Assembly: GCA_026874595.1 (NCBI GenBank)
Contig: CM049313.1
Location: 18,287,508 to 18,351,507, forward strand
DNA from: Sipunculus nudus
Taxonomy: Eukaryota; Annelida; Sipuncula; Golfingiida; Sipunculidae
Reading direction: 5' to 3'
DNA length: 64,000 bases
In this document: piece after piece, positions 718 through 53,531 of the stretch
Position numbering within the stretch: position 1 is the first letter of the stretch
Layout of the letters: each line of letters opens with the position of its first letter
Position numbers and translations under genes: made by a program
Notes under the pieces: model-generated
The model's input: the letters and a program-made list of their open reading frames with translations, nothing else
Databases searched by the model: none
Told to the model about the DNA's origin: nothing

Positions 718-2567
718 GAACATAAAGGCAACCACAGTATCCGGGAAATTTTTTTAATAATCTCCTTGGAAGCCTGGATTTAGATCTCTGTTACATAAAT
801 CCTCGGAGCTGTGGGGCTTATCCCCCCCCCCCCTAGAATAATACGCCTGTCGGGAGACCCATGCTCTCTAGTAGAGAAGGTTAATTAGCCATGGGCTACC
901 AGTGTTGGTAAAAAATAACAACATGGCTGCAAGCAGTAAAATCGGGAGAAAATATTTTCCTTTTACTTTTGTTTAACATGAACATTTAAGTTTGGCCCTT
1001 GTATACTCGTGGTGTACTGTGCATCTGTTATTTGATGCTACGTCACAAAATATACACATATTCCCCGGCCTAGATATGTTACAAATACCAGGAACATTGG
1101 CATTTTTGGTGAACTTGCCAGTGAACATCAAACCAACTGTTCCTCGTGTTTACAATGAAATATACATGTTTGAAATATACATGTCCGGCATTCCATCTCC
1201 CGGAGCGTGACAGAAATGTACAAGCGTCTCTTGCATGACGTCACAAGTCAACCAGTACTTTAAAACACAGCGTATGACATACCGCGGTTAGCTAGGCTGA
1301 TAAAATGAACTACCAGTGACTAAACCAAGCGGCTACCCTCATCTTAACTTTACTGTAACAACCCAAAGAAACTTTTTTTTTTATTAGGGTTTGAAAATAA
1401 TTTAAAATGTATTAAATACCATGCGAATCTCACTAAATTTGTCCCCTAAACCTGACGTTCGCTAAACACCCGGTAAAAATAATTTACCCCTGTCCACCTG
1501 ATTTTTCGTGATTAACTCTACATAAGACAAACTTGGCAAACAAAATTTGCACCAGTGGCATAAAGAGTTGGTACCTTACCTACTAAGGATATTAATTTAT
1601 TTACTTTACGGCCTGGTTGACATGTCTCATATATATCCGTGGTTCATGGCGTCCCTAATAAATCGCTGTAAACAGGGGTCGGCAGCTCTTGATTATTGGT
1701 CCCGTGAATGTTGGTCCCTCTTCAGTACGTAACATCTATTATGACGTCATCACTTTTCCCTGAAATGCTCATTTCGCAGTTTAGTGGCAAGATGTCGCTA
1801 AAGAATAGACTAGTTACTAACAAAATGGTTTTGAATTGTTTATAGGAAAATTACACAAGGAAGTTATATAGTTAATTACGCATTTTCTCCTTTCTGTCCT
1901 AAGTTCAGTTTTGGCCTTCTTTGAATGGCAAAAAAACAAAATCGTGAAAAAAACATGTGGACAGGGGTCCTTGAACGGGCTATAAAAGGGAGAAACCCAA
2001 CTTGTTTCTGCAACAGAACTGACATTAATACGTATAGAATAAAATGAAAATTCATGGTCAGCAGATGGAAACTAGGTAAATTATATATCCACACTACATT
2101 GTTGTACTAGAGTCCGTGCAACCAACCAGGTCTGAAATGACTGTATAAATTCTAAATGGGCATATACCGATCCTTGTTCGAATAATTTAAGTTTATATAA
2201 AAATATACGTTCATCATGGCATATGAAAGCTGTGATTTACGGCTTGATTCCGGTAAAAAAGAATATCAATAAAACACAGAGGCGAGTACTCCATCTTGCT
2301 CATTTGCCCCATACTGGCAAAATCGTATATGACATTTTTCGCCTTCACTTTAAAAGAGTTTACTGTAAGTAACGGGAAAAGTCGATTATCGGACACACGT
2401 ACTGAATATTCGATATGAAAGCTCCAGTATCTGAATTAATGATGCATTGATCGCCATGATTCTTTGTAAAATGATTATTGAGTGTTTCATCAGTTGGCGC
2501 AGACTGGTTGCGCCACCAGCATTTAAAAAATTCTCATTTTATTGCTAAGTTGACTGGAAGTTATCTG

Positions 2568-2725
2568 GGGTGTGTTGCAATAAGGTGACTTAAGTCATGT
2601 AGGTGACTTAAGCCCAGGGGCATCTGTGTGTCACCATGGTAACCATTATGACGTCACAATTGTAACCATGGTATTTAGGCCCCCAACTGGGCTTAAGTCC
2701 AGTAAAATGTTATTGCAACAGGCCC
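2568..2725. mobile_element. 158-bp MITE with CTG target duplication
   Basis: Terminal inverted repeats GGGTGTGTTGCAATAA (2568-2583) and TTATTGCAACAGGCCC (2710-2725) agree at 14 of 16 positions. Inside them CTTAAGCCCAG and CTGGGCTTAAG also pair. The element is bounded by CTG at 2565-2567 and CTG at 2726-2728. The other palindrome arm reads straight through this point with a single CTG (around 6570), so it preserves the empty site. The element is non-autonomous. A 3-bp duplication suits a Harbinger-like or CACTA-like element, but the family is not established. Confidence 0.8.
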
Positions 2726-2749
2726 CTGAGCTATAGCGATCACCCTTTT

Positions 2750-3560
2750 TCCATAAAGTATAGAATCAGGAACATCTGCTTTATGAGAGGTCCTCAAAAT
2801 TTCTCCTCAGAAACCTAAAATAAGGTCACTCTGACCTATTTTCTTGGAGTTAAGGAGCCTGTTACCCCCCCCCCCCCCCACCCAATAATTGAAAAGAACC
2901 CACTAATTGTTAGATTCATCAGGAACGGCCTGATGGACATACCTGTAAAGGCTAGAATCATGAACTTCTGCATCCTGAGAGTTCATCAAAAGTTATCCTT
3001 AGACACCTGAAATTAGGGCACTGTGACCTATATTCCACAAGTTATCTGGATTGTTTGAACACCCCAGAAATAATATTAAATACATAAATATTGCCTAATT
3101 CCCCAGGAACGGCTAGATGGACTTTCATAAAATTTGGTGTCCTGATGCAGTTATGGGACTTCATGTACCTTCGCTATTGAGCATGAATGGTGGCGCAACC
3201 TGCATTATCCTAATTAAAACGATTTTTTAACTGTATTTGTAGAACAATTGGTCTGTTAACAAGGCAAAAATCGTACCATTAAAGATTAGAATCATTAACC
3301 TCTCATCGTGGGAGTTCCTCAAAAGTTCTTCTTAAAACCTGAAATGAGGTCACTGTGACCTATAGTCTCCGAGTTACTGGGCATTTTTGAGCACCCCAGT
3401 AATATTGTAACAAGTATATACAAATTACCAGGAATTTCTTAGGAGAGGCTGGATAGCTTGTAAGTTAATTTGGTGTGCTTATGGGTTTTGATGAAATAAG
3501 GCTAATATGCATGAATGAAGATGCCACCTACATTATCTTAAATACTTGCCTGTAAAAGGG
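2750..3560. repeat. Degenerate tandem units with AGGTCAnnnTGACCT palindromes
   Basis: Three diverged units share the order 'tagaatca ... gttcctcaaaagtt ... acctgaaat ... aggtcactgtgacct'. The palindromes lie at about 2823 (AGGTCACTCTGACCT), 3014 (one half imperfect) and 3346 (AGGTCACTGTGACCT). A C-run at about 2865 interrupts the first unit. Only a fragment of this block survives in the opposite arm (about 6390-6480). No open reading frame of note. Confidence 0.55.
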
Positions 3561-4150
3561 CATAATGTTAACATGTCAATCAGCTGAGCGTCATGACCCA
3601 TGGGTCACTTGTTAGTTACATTGTTTGACAAGTTGGTGGCAGCAAAATCCAGAATAACTAAACTATCGCTTTTTTATTGACAAATGGGTCAACTGGATCG
3701 TCCGTGACTGATATTGTGGGACCATGTAATTATTTGCGATATTCCTTTCAACATTAGGAGTACATATATCCTATTTGTTTGATCAGACGCCGGGCCTTAA
3801 AAAGGTCGGATGCCTTATTTAGTAGCCGGGTCAGCCTCGAGACCCTTACGGATAGAATCTTATGGACAACTGCAAAATCCCTTGCCGTGATTCGATGTAA
3901 ATTGTTGTTTTGATATGCGTATGTGGAGATTGTACGTGACCCATATGACATCTTAGGATACTGCGTAAACACAATCCCTTACCGGCGGTGTTCTCAATTG
4001 CATTCCCAAGTACTAGTGACCGGCTGATAAATTGTTCCTGAGTGTTATTTTGTGCTTTTGTGCTGAGCCTTATAATGTATTTTCTTTTTATAAACGCAGA
4101 CCTTAAATAGACACCGCCTTTGTTTTGACGCCGGGTCAAAGCCAGGTCTG

Positions 4151-4997
4151 AAAAAACGCCTTGGCGTCTGATCAAGGATATACGGTGAGTCGAATTTCAT
4201 GTGGAAGCTCATTCGACTTTGAGTGTGGTCCTCACATAATTTGCTAATATATCGCAAAGAATATGCTAAGGCTAAAGCATATGTTAACATTGCAGTATGT
4301 TAGAAGTTAGAAGGTATCATTTTGGAAGGAGGTTTCTGTACAATTCCAACCCTTGTAGTAGAACGGTTATAAATATATATTGAATGCATGGATCCCCGGC
4401 TTTTTTATTATTAAATAAAGTTTCTTTGTCATATACGTAGTATTATCAGATGTTACGTCTTTTGTTGTCTGACATGCGCGCTGAAGCCGTAGAAATAAAT
4501 TACTGTTTTACATGGAAAAGTAATCTTAGCAATTCCAAAAGGGGAGCCTGACTCTTCTTTAACTAGTAACGTTTTTGTCAGAAATAACATGAAGGAATGG
4601 CTCTGTAGGAGACACTACCTGTCCTAAAGGTCACTTTTGTCTGCTTAACACATACACACACGACCACAAGTAAATACTTATTGATATGGGTCCGACTGAA
4701 TCTAACGGCAGAGAACTTATCAATATTTCTCTGCCGGTTTACGTTACTGGCACGATACTATCAGTTTAAGCGTTCTGCGTGTATCATTGGTATCAATCTA
4801 TTAATATACTGGCGCGAGATACTGGTAAAAGCCATGGGAAATACTGATGGTCGAGTTAAGGAAGGTTTTATTTTTGAAGAAATGAAACAATCTCTCTGTC
4901 ACAGTCCAAAAAAATATATTATGTATTTTAATGTTATGAAATAATGTAATCCATAAGAGCACATGAGCCCGTAGCTTTCGCTTAACAAAAGTAAACT
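4151..4997. other. Loop of the palindrome, non-coding side
   Basis: Single-copy sequence between the palindrome arms, next to the C1q exon on its 3' side. It is AT-rich. I see no further exon, and the reading frames here lack any recognisable motif. A 3' untranslated region of the minus-strand C1q gene would fall here. Confidence 0.4.
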
Positions 4998-42598: not shown

Positions 42599-45500
42599 AT
42601 GGCGTCATGCCTGTTACCGATACTTCTGGCGGCTGTGTCCATCTTGGGCGGGATGACCTGGGCTTCTGGAAGAAAATGTGAACATCTTACAATACCAATG
42701 TGTAAAGGAATGAAGTACGTATGTCATGTGTTGATCTAGTTACATCTTCCCATAACCATGTGTGAGTGATTGAAGTACGTATGTTATGTGTTGATCTTGT
42801 GACGTCTAACTATACCCATGTGTACAGAAATGAAGTAAGTTTGTCATGTGTTGATCTAGTTACATCTTACAATACCCATGTGTACAGAAATGAAGTAAGT
42901 TTGTCATGTGTTGATCTAGTTACTTCAGTTTGTCATGTGTTGATCTAGTTACATCTTCCAATACCCATGTGTAAAGAAATGAAGTACGTATGTCATGTGT
43001 TGATCTAGTTACATCTTACAATACCCATGTGTAACGGAATGAAGTACGTATGTCATGTGTTGATCTACTTACATCTTACAATACCCATGTGTAAAGGAAA
43101 GAAGAACGTATGTCATGTGTTGATCTACTTACATTTTACAATACCCATGTGTAAAGAAATGAAGTACGTATGTCATGTGTTGATCTAGTTACATCTTACA
43201 ATACCCATGTGTAAAGGAATGAAGTACGTATGTCATGAGTTGATATAGTTACATCTTACAATACCCAAGTGTAAAGGAATGAAGTACGTATGTCATGTGT
43301 TGATCTGGTTACATCTTACATTACCCATGTGTAAAGGAAAGAAGAACGTATGTCATGTGTTGATCTAGTTACATCTTACAATACCCATGTGTAAAGGAAT
43401 GAAGTACGTATGTCATGTGTTGATCTAGTTACATCTTACAATACCCATGTGTAAAGGAAAGAAGAACGTATGTCATGTGTTGATCTAGTTACATCTTACA
43501 ATAACCATGTGTAAAGGAATGAAGTACGTATGTCATGTGTTGATCTAGTTACATCTTACAATACCAATGTGTAAAGGAATGAAGTACGTATGTCATGAGT
43601 TGATATAGTTACATCTTACAATACCCAAGTGTAAAGGAAAGAAGAACGTATGTCATGTGTTGATCTAGTTACTTCAGTTTGTCATGTGTTGATCTAGTTA
43701 CATCTTACAATACCCATGTGTAAAGGAATGAAGTACGTATGTCATGTGTTGATCTAGTTACATCTTACAATACCCATGTGTAAAGGAAAGAAGAACGTAT
43801 GTCATGTGTTGATCTATTTACATCTTACAATACCCATGTGTAAAGGAATGAAGTACGTATGTCATGTGTTGATCTAGTTACATCTTACAATACCCATGTG
43901 TAAAGGAATGAAGTACGTATGTCATGAGTTGATATAGTTACATCTTACAATACCCATGTGTAAAGGAATGAAGTACGTATGTCATGTGTTGATCTAGTTA
44001 CATCTTACAATACCCTTGTGTGAAGGAATGAAGTACGTATGTCATGTGTTGATCTAGTTACATCTTACAATACCCATGTGTAAAGGAAAGAAGAACGTAT
44101 GTCATGTGTTGATCTATTTACATCTTACAATACCGATGTGTAAAGGAATGAAGTACGTATGTCATGTGTTGATCTAGTTACATCTTACAATACCCATGTG
44201 TAAAGGAATGAAGTACGTATGTCATGAGTTGATATAGTTACATCTTACAATACCCATGTGTAAAGGAATGAAGTACCTATGTCATGTGTTGATCTAGTTT
44301 CATCTTACAATACCCATGTGTAAAGGAATGAAGTACGTATGTCATGTGTTGATCTAGTTACATCTTACAATACCCATGTGTAAAGGAAAGAAGAACGTAT
44401 GTCATGTGTTGATCTATTTACATCTTACAATACCCATGTGTAAAGGAATGAAGTACGTATGTCATGTGTTGATCTACTTACATCTTACAATACCCATGTG
44501 TAAAGGAATGAAGTACGTATGTCATGAGTTGATCTAGTTACATCTTACAATACCTAAGTGTAAAGGAATGAAGTACGTATGTCATGAGTTGATCTAGTTA
44601 CATATTACAAAACCCATGTGTAAAGGAATGAAGTACGGATGTCATGAGTTGATCTACTTACATCTTACAATACCCATGTGTAAAGGAATGAAGTACGTAT
44701 GTCATGAGTTGATCTACTTACATCTTACAATACCTAAGTGTAAAGGAATGAAGTACGTATGTCATGAGTTGATCTAGTTACATATTACAAAACCCATGTG
44801 TAAAGGAATGAAGTACGGATGTCATGAGTTGATCTACTTACATCTTACAATACCCATGTGTAAAGGAATGAAGTACGTATGTCATGAGTTGATCTACTTA
44901 CATCTTACAATACCCATGTGTAAAGGAATGAAGTACGTATGTCATGCGTTGATCTAGTTACATCTTACAAAACCCATGTGTAAAGGAATGAAGTACGGAT
45001 GTCATGAGTTGATCTAGTTACATCTTACAATACCCAAGTGTAAAGGAATGAAGTACGTATGTCATGAGTTGATCTAGTTATATCTTACAATACCCATGTG
45101 TAAAGGAATGAAGTACGTATGTCATGAGTTGATATAGTTACATCTTACAATACCCATGTGTAAAGGAATGAAGTACGTATGTCATGAGTTGATATAGTTA
45201 CATCTTACAATACCCATGTGTTAAGGAATGAAGTATGTTTCTTTGTGGAGCGTGGTGGCGTAATGTTTTGGGCGCGGGACCTGTGACTGAAGGGTTAGGG
45301 GTGCGCGTCCCGTTCAGATCGCCTTCTTCGCTAAGACTCCTGGCCAAAGTCTTTACCACAAGGGTGCGCTCTCTCGACCCAGGAGTGAATGGGTACTGGT
45401 CATATGTGGCAGGCAAATGTAGAACGAATAACCTTCTAGCGCCTGTAATGGCTGCTTGGGTTGTATGCTCCCCAGGGAGCCGAGAAAAGCAACAAGAATG

Positions 45501-48500
45501 AACAGGCCCGAGAGACCAGGAAGGCAAAGTGTTAAAAGTCGGCTGAGACTGCGACTACAGCGGTAATAGAAGACTATAAACCCCGTACCTTTACCTTTAC
45601 TTTTATGTGTTGATATAGTTAGAGCTTACCATACCCAGGTGTAAAAGAATGAAGTACGTATGTTATGTATTGATCTTGTTATATGGTTAACTATTTCAGG
45701 TAAAAGGGTGAGTATGTCTGACATGCATTATATCTGAAGATAAAAGTGTTTTAATTAAAAAAAATAATTCAAATGGATTTTGGGGTAAATACACAATTTA
45801 AAGAAAGACGCTATATTAATTTTCTCGACAGTTCTGTTTTCTGCTTTAGACGTTATGCTATGATGCCTTGATTGCTTTTTTTTTTAATTTATGAAAGTGT
45901 TTCCCAAATATTGAATTGTTTTAAAATCATGAATGTCCCTTGAAGGAGTTTATAAACAATCATGTCCATTTTATGAAACTATATATATTTTAAATCTTTC
46001 AAAAGTATATTTTTAAAATATTTTTATTCACACTATAGTCAACACATTAAAAATTATTCTGAATGATAGAAATAAAGAAGCAATTAAGGAACGTTATGTA
46101 AATATATCAGATTCCGGAGTTGTTTTCTTTTTTTTTATTTTACAGGGCCAAGATATTATTTCTGCTATAAGATATCTTTTTTTCTGAAAACAAGGAAATG
46201 ATCTGATAAGAAGAAAACAGTTCTATAAAAAAAATTGTTTTTTACCTCTAGAAGAAAACTTTTTATGTCCCACTCCCCATGCAGAAAATTTTCGCGTCAT
46301 AAGATATATTTTTTTCTTATAGTATGTTCAGTCAGTGGTTTTAAGAAATTAATTTTTTCAAGAATATCATTTTGGTAGTGTAGATGTTGTTATTTGCTGG
46401 AGCTGGTCCAGGACCACAAGGAGTTTTGTTTACTATAACAGGTACAACATGACCGTCGTGCCAAACTATCTCAACCATACTAGTCAAGAGGATGCCGGTC
46501 TGGAGATCCATCAGTTTTTTCCATTGGTGAAAGTCGGATGTCACAAGCAGCTGGCGTCCTTTCTCTGTTTGAATTACGCCTCTCCATGCACACTTTTGGA
46601 TAATGCCCTGCCGTCATGTCGAGGATTATGTAAGCGAGTCAAAAGAGGTGAGGGCCGGGGACAGTCTGTCTTTTGTGTAACCGCAGTTTGTCCTTTTTTG
46701 TAAACGATGTTTGTCCATATTTGTTACCGCAGTTTGTCCGTTTTGTTATCGAAAGTTTGTCCTTCTTTGTTACCACAGTGTGTCTTTTTTTTTTGTAACC
46801 GCAGTTCTTTATTTTTTTACCGAAGCTTGTCCTTTTTGTAAACGCAGTTTATCCTTTTTTTTTGTAAATGCAGTTGATCCTTTTTTGTAAACGCAGTTTG
46901 TCCTTTCTTGTTTCCGCAGTTTGTTTCTTTTCTCTGTTTGAATTACGCCTTACAATGCACACTTTTGGAAAAAGCCATGCCGTCATGTCGAGGATTATGT
47001 AAGCGAGTCAAAAGAGGTGAGGGCCGGGGACAGTCTGTCTTTTGTGTAACCGCAGTTTGTCCTTTTTTGTAAACGATGTTTGTCCATTTTTGTTACCACA
47101 GTTTGTCCTTTTTTGTTATCGAAGTTTGTCCTTCTTTGTTACCACAGATAACCGCAGTTCTTTTTTTTACCGAAGCTTGTCCTTTTTGTAAACGCAGTTT
47201 ATCCTTTTTTTGTAAATGAGGTTTGTCCTTTTTTGTAACCGCACATTGGCCTATTTTGTAACCGCAGTTTGTTCTTTTCTGTAACTCACTCAGAAGAATC
47301 AGGTATGGTTACAGTTGAAACTAGACATATGTTTTCTAAGGAATGCTAGCCTCTACCATACGGAGGATTTCTATTATGGGATGCTCCCAAAACTGTGTCT
47401 GTATTCACTTAAGCCCACAGTCCCATTTTCATTCGTGCATAAGTAAATGAGTATTTGTATAATATAATCGATCGCCGTGGTAGTGCGTCCCCACGTATGA
47501 CTTGTGTCACGGCTCAAGTACAAGCCATCAGCCTAACTTCGCACACAGAGCGGGCGGTCGAGACGAGAATCAAGTCCGGTCCGCTCTGTTTGCGGCACTT
47601 ATTAGTTTTGGACTGTTTCGAATTAAGTTAGAACCCGGCGCCGCCGCGAGTTTTTCGCCGCCGCCAACCGAATTCAGATCAATCTGACTCGAGCCGAGTT
47701 TATCAGGGGCGCCGCCGATATTTCATCAAGCCGAGGTGAGCGGATCTTGTGCAGCTCAGTTTGGCTTAAGAAAATATTATACAAAAAGATAAATTGTTTC
47801 AATGAAAATGCCCGAAACGTATACAGAAATAACAAAAAATACATATATTTGTTCAAGTATAAAAGTGTTGGCTTATGAAACCATCAGGATAAACAATTCT
47901 CGATTTTAAATCACAAACTAGATAAAAGTAAAATAGATGCAATAAGTCACAGGTAATATAGATATCTATTTTTAATAAACCGGGTATTTGTAATATCGTC
48001 AAATGCATAGGCTTTCAGGTCAGTTTAAGCCAGCCGACAATGTGCAAGCCGAGTCCAGCCACGAAACGAGGCTTACTACTGAAATCAGCCGTCTTTTAGT
48101 ACCAGCAAGCACTATTTGTGTCACTAACACGGCTCAATATATTGTACTTGTTTTTGGCATTCTTCTTCTTTTTTTCTTATTATTCCGCCATTTTATTCCC
48201 TGATTACATTGATGCTTAGGCTAGGTGTACCTTACCTTGCGTCATTGACTTTGACCTAGTTTCAGTGACCTTGACCTAATTTTTAAGGTCACAGCGGTCA
48301 AAAAGTGCGATCTTTTTTTCGGATTTTCAATTTCAATTTTTTTCTAAATGGTAAGGGGTATAGAGACAAATGGTTAAAAATGAGCTTACCAAATTAGCAA
48401 ACTTTTTGAATACACTCATGGGTAACCATATGAGTTAGACTACGTTTGCAAATGCATTTGACCTAGGAAGTTGAATCTTTTACAAACATGTGCCATTTAC

Positions 48501-50350: not shown

Positions 50351-51490
50351 TAAAGAGTTTGGTGGCGGGTAAATTCTGTTTTTTTACCGACTCAAAGAAA
50401 ACAGGAACGGTTACACTAAATCATGGCTAACTCCGCCAGGGTACCCTATCATCAAGTTATCATGAGTACAAACTGTCATGCTGCATCAACACGGGTTAAC
50501 CTGATAAGCTCACTCTAATACCAATGAATGGAGTGGCCTCTGCCCGTGAACAAAGAAATTGCCCTTTGTCAGAGAGGTGCTTAATCTTTTTAAAATAAAA
50601 GTATATCATATATAAATAGGTTCACTCTTCACGGATTTTAATCTCCACTACAGAGTGGCCTCTGCCCGTGAACAAAGAAATTGCCCTTTGTCAGAGAGGT
50701 GCTTAATCTTTTTAAAATAAAAGTATATCATATATAATTGTGCTCTAGTTTACCTAAAAATATATTGATTATATCGAGGGTTTCTACGGAAGCGTATTGC
50801 TGCCCCCTAGTAAAAGAAAAATAAATTATTTATCTCGTACGTACGACATACTATCTCGTACGTACGACATATTATCTCGTACGAGAAAATGAGAGTTCTG
50901 TGTATGACTGGTAGCCAATGTAAAGAGTTTGGTGGCGGGTAAATTCTGTTTTTTTACCGACTCAAAGAAAACAGGAACGGTTACACTAAATCATGGCTAA
51001 CTCCGCCAGGGTACCCTATCATCAAGTTATCATGAGTACAAACTGTCATGCTGCATCAACACGGGTTAACCTGATAAGCTCACTCTAATACCAATGAATG
51101 GAGTGGCCTCTGCCCGTGAACAAAGAAATTGCCCTTTGTCAGAGAGGTGCTTAATCTTTTTAAAATAAAAGTATATCATATATAAATAGGTTCACTCTTC
51201 ACGGATTTTAATCTCCACTACAGAGTGGCCTCTGCCCGTGAACAAAGAAATTGCCCTTTGTCAGAGAGGTGCTTAATCTTTTTAAAATAAAAGTATATCA
51301 TATATAATTGTGCTCTAGTTTACCTAAAAATATATTGATTATATCGAGGGTTTCTACGGAAGCGTATTGCTGCCCCCTAGTAAAAGAAAAATAAATTATT
51401 TATCTCGTACGTACGACATACTATCTCGTACGTACGACATATTATCTCGTACGAGAAAATGAGAGTTCTGTGTATGACTGGTAGCCAATG
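50351..51490 (+). repeat. Perfect 570-bp tandem duplication
   Basis: 50351-50920 and 50921-51490 look identical base for base. Inside each is a further nested repeat of ~83 bp ('gagtggcctctgcccgtgaa ... gtatatcatatata') at +180 and +303. Exact identity means a very recent event or an assembly duplication. Confidence 0.95.
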
Positions 51491-51645
51491 TAGATTATAT
51501 GTCGTACGTACGACATACTATCTCGTACGTACGACATATTATCTCGTACGTACGACATATTATCTCGTACGTACGACATACTATCTCGTACGTACGACAT
51601 ATAATCTACATTGGCTACCAGTCATACACAGAACTCTCATTTTTA
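51459..51645. repeat. Palindrome with TCGTACGTACGA array
   Basis: GAGAGTTCTGTGTATGACTG then GTAGCCAATGTAGATTATA on the left is mirrored by its exact complement ending at about 51642. Between them lie five 21-bp units, each holding the self-complementary TCGTACGTACGA. Two to three such units also occur in each 570-bp copy. Confidence 0.9.
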
Positions 51646-51690
51646 GATAGGTGATTAAATTCTGTTGCGTATGGTGCTATAATAGAGAAC
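51604..51690 (+). pseudogene. Fragment of a non-LTR retrotransposon reverse transcriptase end
   Basis: The frame reads LHWLPVIHRTLIFR, a stop, then VIKFCCVWCYN. LHWLPV-x-x-R is characteristic of the C-terminal thumb region of CR1/Jockey-like LINE reverse transcriptases. The same text, diverged and inverted, lies at 52985-53055. Only this short piece is visible, so it is a dead remnant. Confidence 0.45.
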
Positions 51691-51753
51691 CTGTCATAAT
51701 GATGATAAGAAAAAATATTACAGTCTTTTCACACACACACACAAATACATACA

Positions 51754-51758
<5 letters not shown>

Positions 51759-51845
<87 letters not shown>
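51759..51845. repeat. Compound (AT)n(AG)n(GACA)n microsatellite
   Basis: Three consecutive simple-repeat blocks. 51857-51893 then repeats, inverted, 'aataggttcactcttcacgg' from inside each 570-bp copy. Confidence 0.9.
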
Positions 51846-51929
51846 GAGAAGAGGATTGTAGTGGAGATTAAAATCCGTGAAGAGTGAACCTATTTACCTT
51901 TCACATACCAGGTATATTACGTTTATATG

Positions 51930-52260
51930 AAATACAGTGTAGTCTCCTTAAATATTACGGTATCTTTCAATATTTCGTTCTAAAACCGTTTGCTAAATCC
52001 GTTACGCAAGTAGAAAAAGGCTTGCCACGGGTGCGATGGATGATGAAAAACAAACAGCGATCACGCCACTTGTTGGATGTACAACCCAACTTCACAAATC
52101 AAGGTTTTCTAGCTTCTCCGGGTGTTTCTTTGTTTCATGTTTGTTCTCTTTTTTATAATTTTCGCGTGTGCTCAACTAAGATCTTGCCGCTAGTCAAGCG
52201 GTCTTGTAATTGTAAACAGACACACGAGGACTGTGTTAACTCACAGACAGAACCATGACA
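51930..52260 (+). repeat. Dispersed repeat, direct partner at 56110-56420
   Basis: Shared blocks in order: 'ctccttaaa', 'atggtatct/acggtatct', 'aaaccgttt', 'cacgccac', 'acaaatcaaggttttc', 'gtgtttctttg', 'tcttgt ... gtaaacagacaca' and 'gtttactcaca'. A 124-residue frame across this copy is not conserved in the other, so it is not coding. Confidence 0.65.
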
Positions 52261-52269
52261 ACGTATAAA

Positions 52270-53243
52270 ACCAGGAGTTACTAAGCTCGTGTGTCGGCAT
52301 GGATTTGCTGGACAACTTTTGTTTTCACCCAAAATGAGTTAATAACGTGAGACAACACACATATTATTGCAAATGAATATGAACCATAAGTGTCACTTAT
52401 AGAGGTGTCTGTAATACAGAGATGCCAATAAGGAGAGGTTAATGATTCCTATATTAATTATGAAACGGAGTGCTTGATCCCATAAGTTTAACTTCATGGT
52501 GTCTACAGTAGTAGGACAAGTTACACGTACATGTACCACATATAAGATTTTATACTTATCCCAAATCAAACCGATCTGAGGTGTAGGCTTTACCACCACT
52601 TCAGCCTGACATATTAACAAAAAGACATGTATTATATTTTGTATTCTTCTTTCACAGATTAATCAAATGTCTATGAGCTATAGTCTATAATATTTTTTTT
52701 ATTTAATTAAAATAAAAAATTAAATTATATGTACCGCATAAAATGGGTTGTGGACTGTTCCGCTACCCACATATTATATAAATGGTTGTATATACATTAA
52801 ATATTTTTAACGATCCACTACACCGTGCGTTATATCATAAATCTAATTTTTAGATCAATAATGAATATTAGAAAACTGCACAATACTCAAACACTAAAAA
52901 TTAGGCTATTTGGTAGCTGTCCTCTTGTTTTCAATTTGGCAAAGGCAATATTTTTTTATTAATACTATGACAGGCTCATCCTTTTTAACATCATACGCTA
53001 CCAACAGAATTAATCACCTATCTAAAAATGAAAGTTCTGTATATGACCTGCAGACAACGACTTGATATATTTCGCTTCCTTAAAACATTTCAGAAACCTA
53101 GACACAGAAAAATGATATAATCGAATAGCATTTAAATATATAGTATATATAAATAAATAAAGAAATATATATATATATATATATACGTTCGTTTCAACGG
53201 TGTTCAAACTGTTTGCAAGGAGGTGGAGAACATACATGATCTA

Positions 53244-53281
<38 letters not shown>

Positions 53282-53340
53282 TGCTTATACATATATCAGT
53301 TGGTCTGTTGTGTAGTCTGTGAAACAGATCCGTTAGATTT
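52270..53340. other. No gene; (TA)n runs and repeat fragments
   Basis: Contains (TA)n at about 53167-53184 and 53259-53281, and the inverted LINE-end fragment at 52985-53055. No exon seen. Confidence 0.45.
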
Positions 53341-53342
53341 AT

Positions 53343-53531
53343 TATGTCGTACGTACGAGATAGTATGTCGTACGTACGAGATAATATGTCGTACGTACGA
53401 GATATTATGTCGTACGTACGAGATAGTATGTCGTACGTACGAGATAATATGTCGTACGTACGAGATAACAAGTCGTACGTACGAGATAGTATGTCGTACG
53501 TACGAGATACTATGTCGTACGTACGAGATAA
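53343..53531. repeat. Nine 21-bp units with TCGTACGTACGA core
   Basis: Unit TATGTCGTACGTACGAGATA plus one variable base, nine times. Because 21 is a multiple of three, both strands give long reading frames (SYVRD / SRTYD repeats), which are artefacts. The right flank (CTAGGTGGCAGCAATACGCT then TCCGTAG) is the reverse complement of the flank of the array inside the 570-bp copies, so the two arrays are the inverted ends of one element or duplication. Confidence 0.95.

Follow-up and report, generated by a model that had tools for sequence, protein, structure and literature searches.

A boundary-spanning minisatellite of mirage type in the first intron of a Frizzled-CRD gene of Sipunculus nudus

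When repeats that straddle an exon-intron boundary are considered, the closest described systems come from amphioxus and human. The amphioxus mirages, present in Adh3 and in the globin genes BflGb6 and BflGb9, are described as minisatellite-like tandem duplications of the exon-intron boundary, which may affect either end of an intron, whose units keep the AG/GT signal in many but not all cases, and whose cluster edges escape homogenisation (PMC3087553). BflGb6 haplotypes are reported with six and three units of 150-160 bp, BflGb9 with one 157-bp duplicate and Adh3 with units of 10-72 bp, and RT-PCR in the same report suggested that regular splicing is undisturbed by them (PMC3087553). In human, the 31-bp VNTR of CBS, c.1444_1467+7(16_21), comprises by its name 24 exon and 7 intron bases at the exon 13-intron 13 boundary and occurs in 16-21 copies (PMC2630376, PMC1395315); it is reported as associated with reduced activity (Lievers 2001). 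The IFI6 (6-16) gene contains a minisatellite with multiple splice donors (Turri et al. 1995), two downstream units of which are described as being used, giving three mRNAs (PMC4526556). Finally, minisatellite expansion in the paralogues of human segmental duplicates reportedly alters gene structure, and boundary repeats, averaging four 30-bp units, have been proposed there to form new introns (PMC2812944). Given these precedents, the array described here, in a gene that we call A, belongs to an already known type of structure, and most likely it is a "mirage" minisatellite that is passive, splicing taking place at the first of its units. A literature search covering titles and the beginnings of abstracts brought up no boundary repeat in a Frizzled-type gene, although one may exist elsewhere.

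Gene A lies within the 64,000-nucleotide stretch analysed (the window, to which all positions refer), and its model consists of three coding exons:

42599..42714, plus strand: coding exon 1, with the signal peptide (by eye) and the start of the CRD; from the joined translation, the Pfam Fz match and the exon 1 matches of paralogues
46442..46647, plus strand: coding exon 2, preceded by the acceptor AG at 46440-46441; from translation and from profile matches in the paralogues and the genome
49053..49168, plus strand: coding exon 3, including the stop codon; from translation and comparison with paralogues

Joined, these segments give an open frame of 145 aa by conceptual translation. The protein matches Pfam Fz (PF01392) with E=4.8e-30 and 104.8 bits, above the curated cut-off of 32.1 for a Frizzled CRD, over profile positions 1-109 of 110; this is the sole Pfam family found at E <=0.001, and the top PDB matches are Frizzled-7 CRD chains. 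These matches and the 145-aa frame are the grounds on which the product is read as a CRD-only protein, the N-terminus of which looks like a signal peptide when inspected by eye. The splice from 42714/42715 to 46442 restores K-Y-N, in agreement with the CRD alignment, and the intron between exons 1 and 2 lies at the same place in four paralogues (B, C, D and E).

The units of the array were defined by TRF and by wrap-around alignment of 42682-45237, and the following elements can be distinguished between exons 1 and 2:

42682..45237, plus strand: mirage minisatellite of 41 full 60-bp units, two 29-bp units and one cut unit; TRF and wrap-around alignment
42682..42741, plus strand: unit 1, comprising the last 33 bases of exon 1, the true donor GAA/GTACGT at 42714/42715 and 27 intron bases; alignment
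42742..42801, plus strand: unit 2, a decayed copy with 10 mismatches and an in-frame stop; alignment and translation
45238..45604, plus strand: dispersed element, SINE-like in our reading and with edges set by eye, inside the last part of the array; genome search
about 45605..45690, plus strand: remnant array unit past the insertion, edges set by eye; alignment and array search

An earlier note on this DNA had proposed that the 60-bp unit combines the terminal part of coding exon 1 with the 5' splice site and early intron sequence, and that the genuine exon end is itself unit 1. Register and alignment bear out both proposals: unit 1 matches the array consensus at 59 of 60 positions, with a single mismatch, and elsewhere in the 64-kb window no ungapped alignment to it exceeds 33 of 60, so that the exon end stands inside the array register and not outside it. 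The array is likewise real, while the count of about 42 copies given in that note becomes 41 full and three shortened units. The two 29-bp units, at 42922 and 43671, are identical to each other, and the last unit, 38 bp long, is cut at about 45237 by the dispersed element. A genome query with this element (45245-45600) returned 42 match rows, with 40 places scored (itself included) of 3727 candidates, and its long matches to other places are 84-95% identical.

Divergence along the array is ordered. Unit 1, which is constrained, has one mismatch to the consensus and units 2, 3 and 4 have 10, 7 and 4, the median of all 41 full units being 2; thus, units 2-4 at the 5' edge are less homogenised than the bulk, although units 34 and 37, inside the array, have five mismatches each and exceed unit 4. 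Block copies are also present, units 33-35 being identical to units 36-38 and unit 5 to unit 18. In its boundary-spanning units, in the authentic exon end being one of them, in its escaping edge units and in the partial retention of splice signals (GT at 35 of 42 donor positions), the array resembles the mirages as described in amphioxus, from which it differs in its 60-bp unit, its more than forty copies and the five paralogues available for comparison, and in being known here from DNA alone. The CBS VNTR is alike in that its unit straddles an exon-intron boundary, and it is known to vary in people. As tandem repeats are prone to assembly errors, the length of the array may be wrong, and it might be asked whether the whole is an assembly artefact or a missized repeat. 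This is most improbable, since paralogue B has its own nine-unit array with a different insertion, the unit differences are ordered along the array and the locus lies within an 80.9-Mb contig.

The earlier note had spoken of dozens of equivalent donors; 35 of 42 unit positions (the true donor included) keep GT, and the other seven have GA, all of them one variant. The 42 positions are distributed over GAAGTACGT (28), GAAGAACGT (7), GAAGTACGG (3), GAAGTAAGT (2, in units 3 and 4), GAAGTACCT (1) and GAAGTATGT (1). The true donor, GAA/GTACGT, is common to 27 other units, whereas units 3 and 4 (at 42835 and 42895) carry GAA/GTAAGT, which is nearer to the consensus. By a rough U1 pairing score, obtained as a ViennaRNA duplex with the U1 5' end and serving for ranking only, the true donor is weak: 90 of the 380 GT sites of intron 1 score at least as high, 65 of them in the array, and the highest-scoring sites of all, at 45708, 45700 and 45639, are outside it. 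A weak true donor together with the better matches in units 3 and 4 makes some use of the decoys plausible. Just past the array, at 45690-45715, the sequences TTTCAG/GTAAAA and AGG/GTGAGT resemble a recursive-splicing (AG/GT) point; this site is absent from the B sequence shown.

The consequences for the reading frame are uniform. When each of the 42 unit donors is joined to exons 2 and 3 and the result translated, unit 1 yields 145 aa and every one of the 41 others 46 aa, which agrees with the expectation in the note that only the first donor yields a clean product; of the 43 units whose tails are long enough to contain the in-frame TAG, which it had ascribed to most units, 31 have it. In IFI6, too, a tandem repeat supplies several donors, as reported, but those of gene A beyond the first would truncate the protein at 46 aa.

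Alternatively, the copies could constitute a functional decoy array, binding U1 snRNP or competing with the true donor, so that array length would tune the share of productive transcript; in a variant of the same reading they would protect the intron from early polyadenylation. The widespread GT, the 28 donors identical to the true one (itself counted), the two that come nearer to the consensus and the identical short product of all 41 downstream splices would suit such a role, as would the reported use of downstream units as donors in IFI6 (PMC4526556) and the reported association of the CBS VNTR with reduced activity. We nevertheless consider it unlikely, because the donor bases are not conserved above the other bases of the unit, seven donor positions have been lost through one variant, copy number varies widely among the paralogues and intron 1 holds only three A(A/T)TAAA sites from which protection could be needed. 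Nor do the present data support the effects suggested in the note, namely burial of the true donor, titration of U1 snRNP, intron retention and expression that varies with array length.

Conservation was compared in several ways. Across the 41 full units, the donor bases -3 to +6 have a mean diversity of 0.062, compared with 0.070 for unit positions 1-30 and 0.068 for positions 40-60. In this comparison, which has low power, the donor shows no excess conservation, and its T varies among these units of A (0.283). When the old units of paralogues C and D (C2, C3, D2 and D3) were set against their own exon units, 29 of 35 donor bases and 138 of 188 other bases matched, a difference that is not significant in this low-powered test (Fisher p=0.29); the donor bases matched are 9 of 9 in C2, 8 of 9 in D2 and in D3, and 4 of 8 in C3. 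Selection on decoy donors is thus unsupported by either test, each of low power. The variants of the exon half, with unit 1 left out, comprise 7 synonymous and 18 non-synonymous changes against 18:81 for random ones (p=0.28), so that coding constraint on the unit peptides was not detected, again with low power, and is likewise unsupported.

The origin of the array can be followed in the related genes. A genome search with PF01392 found 57 places, seven of them on the contig of gene A, where the following genes have a CRD exon in the layout of gene A:

B: locus L039
C: loci L041, L055 and L056
D: locus L042
E: locus L040

Counting the exon end, there are one unit in E (no copy), three in D, three in C, nine in B, where an inserted element interrupts them, and 44 segments plus the remnant in A. 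These numbers (1, 3, 3, 9 and over 40) come from a single assembly and describe variation across paralogues only; those for C and D are from hand alignment, and for D also from blastn. A genome query with array DNA matched 24 places, of which 19 are in gene A (remnant included), four at B and one at C; it did not detect the units of D, which rest on the hand alignment and blastn. By blastn, the C and D stretches are 71-80% identical to the array of A, and D is 72% identical to the array start. A search with a mostly-N pattern was uninformative (4677 forward and 4581 reverse matches).

In the tree of CRD fragments, A-E form one clade (100/99) with A and B as a pair (90/93), and the order of C, D and E is left unsettled, so that a loss of the array in E is possible. 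Synonymous divergence is 0.067 between A and B and 0.324 between A and C, from which it follows that the difference between nine and over forty units postdates the A-B split. The first copy is older. The junction CTTGTG/ACGTCTAAC lies between units 1 and 2 in B and between units 2 and 3 in A, where it forms the end of unit 2, and the start ACGTCT is common to unit 2 of B, unit 2 of C and unit 3 of A; hence the duplication predates the split of A and B, and probably that of A, B and C, and A has one extra unit next to the exon. Since E is without a copy while D and C have two old copies each, seeding from the exon is favoured; on this comparison, the array probably arose from the exon before the A-D split, and its expansion took place in A.

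The B locus has further peculiarities. The element that interrupts its array, at about 1735-4785 of the reverse complement of L039, has the ends TAGGGCTG and CAGCCCTA and an apparent 8-base target duplication, ATACCCAT; we take it to be hAT-like. Exon 2 of B ends one base shorter than that of A, exon 3 was found neither in L039 nor in two further 9.9-kb stretches (L059 and L060), and B may be a decaying gene.

The most unusual aspect of the locus, a hint at most, is that the coding exon end may itself join the turnover of the array. Compatible with a passive array, conversion by array units may have overwritten the last 33 coding bases and the donor in A and B, the exon end thereby being a continuing array member, with its donor moved towards GTACGT and one CRD residue changed from Leu to Met. 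To this we give a substantial but minority share of belief. The exon ends of C, D and E carry a Leu-codon base at position 17 of the unit, and those of A and B have A (Met) there, as do the old units C2, D2 and D3 (C3 has G); at position 16 the exon of B has the array-type C. As exon donor, D and E have GTAAGT and C has GTATGT, while A and B share GTACGT with the majority of their units. Upstream of the shared junction A counts one unit more than B, and unit 1 of A bears an array-type tail. The diagnostic bases are just two to four, though, and outward amplification from the exon after ordinary mutations would give a similar pattern; moreover, Met at this codon is also seen in L011 and L012, which are Frizzled paralogues, the C1 tail (CCAGTT) is closer to A1 than to B1, and the branching order of C, D and E is unsettled. 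If the proposal is true, minisatellite turnover drives the evolution of a splice junction and of eleven codons.

The preferred account, a passive minisatellite, takes as directly observed the anatomy and register of the array, the paralogue series, the consequences for the frame and the lack of detectable donor conservation. The array would have begun when a short stretch, consisting of the exon 1 end with its donor and the adjoining intron bases, was duplicated in tandem, probably in an ancestor of paralogues A-D, a point that we place on the gene tree by inference. Three units, exon end included, would have persisted in C and D, while unequal exchange and block duplication may have raised the number to nine in B and to more than forty in A. 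Splicing of the pre-mRNA most likely joins the donor nearest the cap, the first one at 42714/42715, to 46442, and the copies would be removed together with the intron; mis-splicing from later units would run into the in-frame TAG, give the 46-aa product and probably end in nonsense-mediated decay. The passive reading draws on the signs of turnover (the identical blocks 33-35 and 36-38, the identity of units 5 and 18 and the diverged units 2-4), on the absence of detectable coding or donor constraint, and on a further tandem duplication in the same gene, which spans the donor of exon 2. Against it stand the weak true donor and the old units of D, in each of which 8 of 9 donor bases survive (the pooled test, of low power, gave no significance), and the persistence of the array through gene duplications could be a hint at function.

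The second duplication comprises two copies only:

46926..47273, plus strand: head-to-tail copy of 46557-46925; blastn

The two are 87.6% identical over 370 aligned columns. Their unit takes in the 91 bases at the 3' end of exon 2 together with the donor and, beyond it, the beginning of intron 2, where part of a 23-bp repeat is included. A query with 47018-47290 matched three places, two of them in gene A and one at B (89 query bases). Many units of the 23-bp repeats in 46557-47273 have a pyrimidine-rich stretch and CAG, an acceptor-like combination. Further along, 50831-53531 contains several 21-bp arrays (at 50831, 51401, 51498 and 53343; TRF), whose unit holds TCGTACGTACGA. Elsewhere in the assembly, COX1 frames of 577-578 aa with nearly equal scores occur at nine places on eight contigs (within C60-C89 of G000), with a shorter one on C123; the contigs with the nine frames are perhaps bacterial.

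Repeats of exon-intron boundaries matter as a proposed route to new introns and as a natural test of donor choice. Gene A shares with the human segmental duplicates, as these are described, boundary repeats in paralogues, but no new intron has arisen in it. At one and the same intron, the five related genes display an exon end without copies, arrays that are old and small, and one recent expansion. The sister genes thereby give an unusually clear view of the history of the array, and ordinary sequencing could test both the order of events and whether the coding end has been carried with it.
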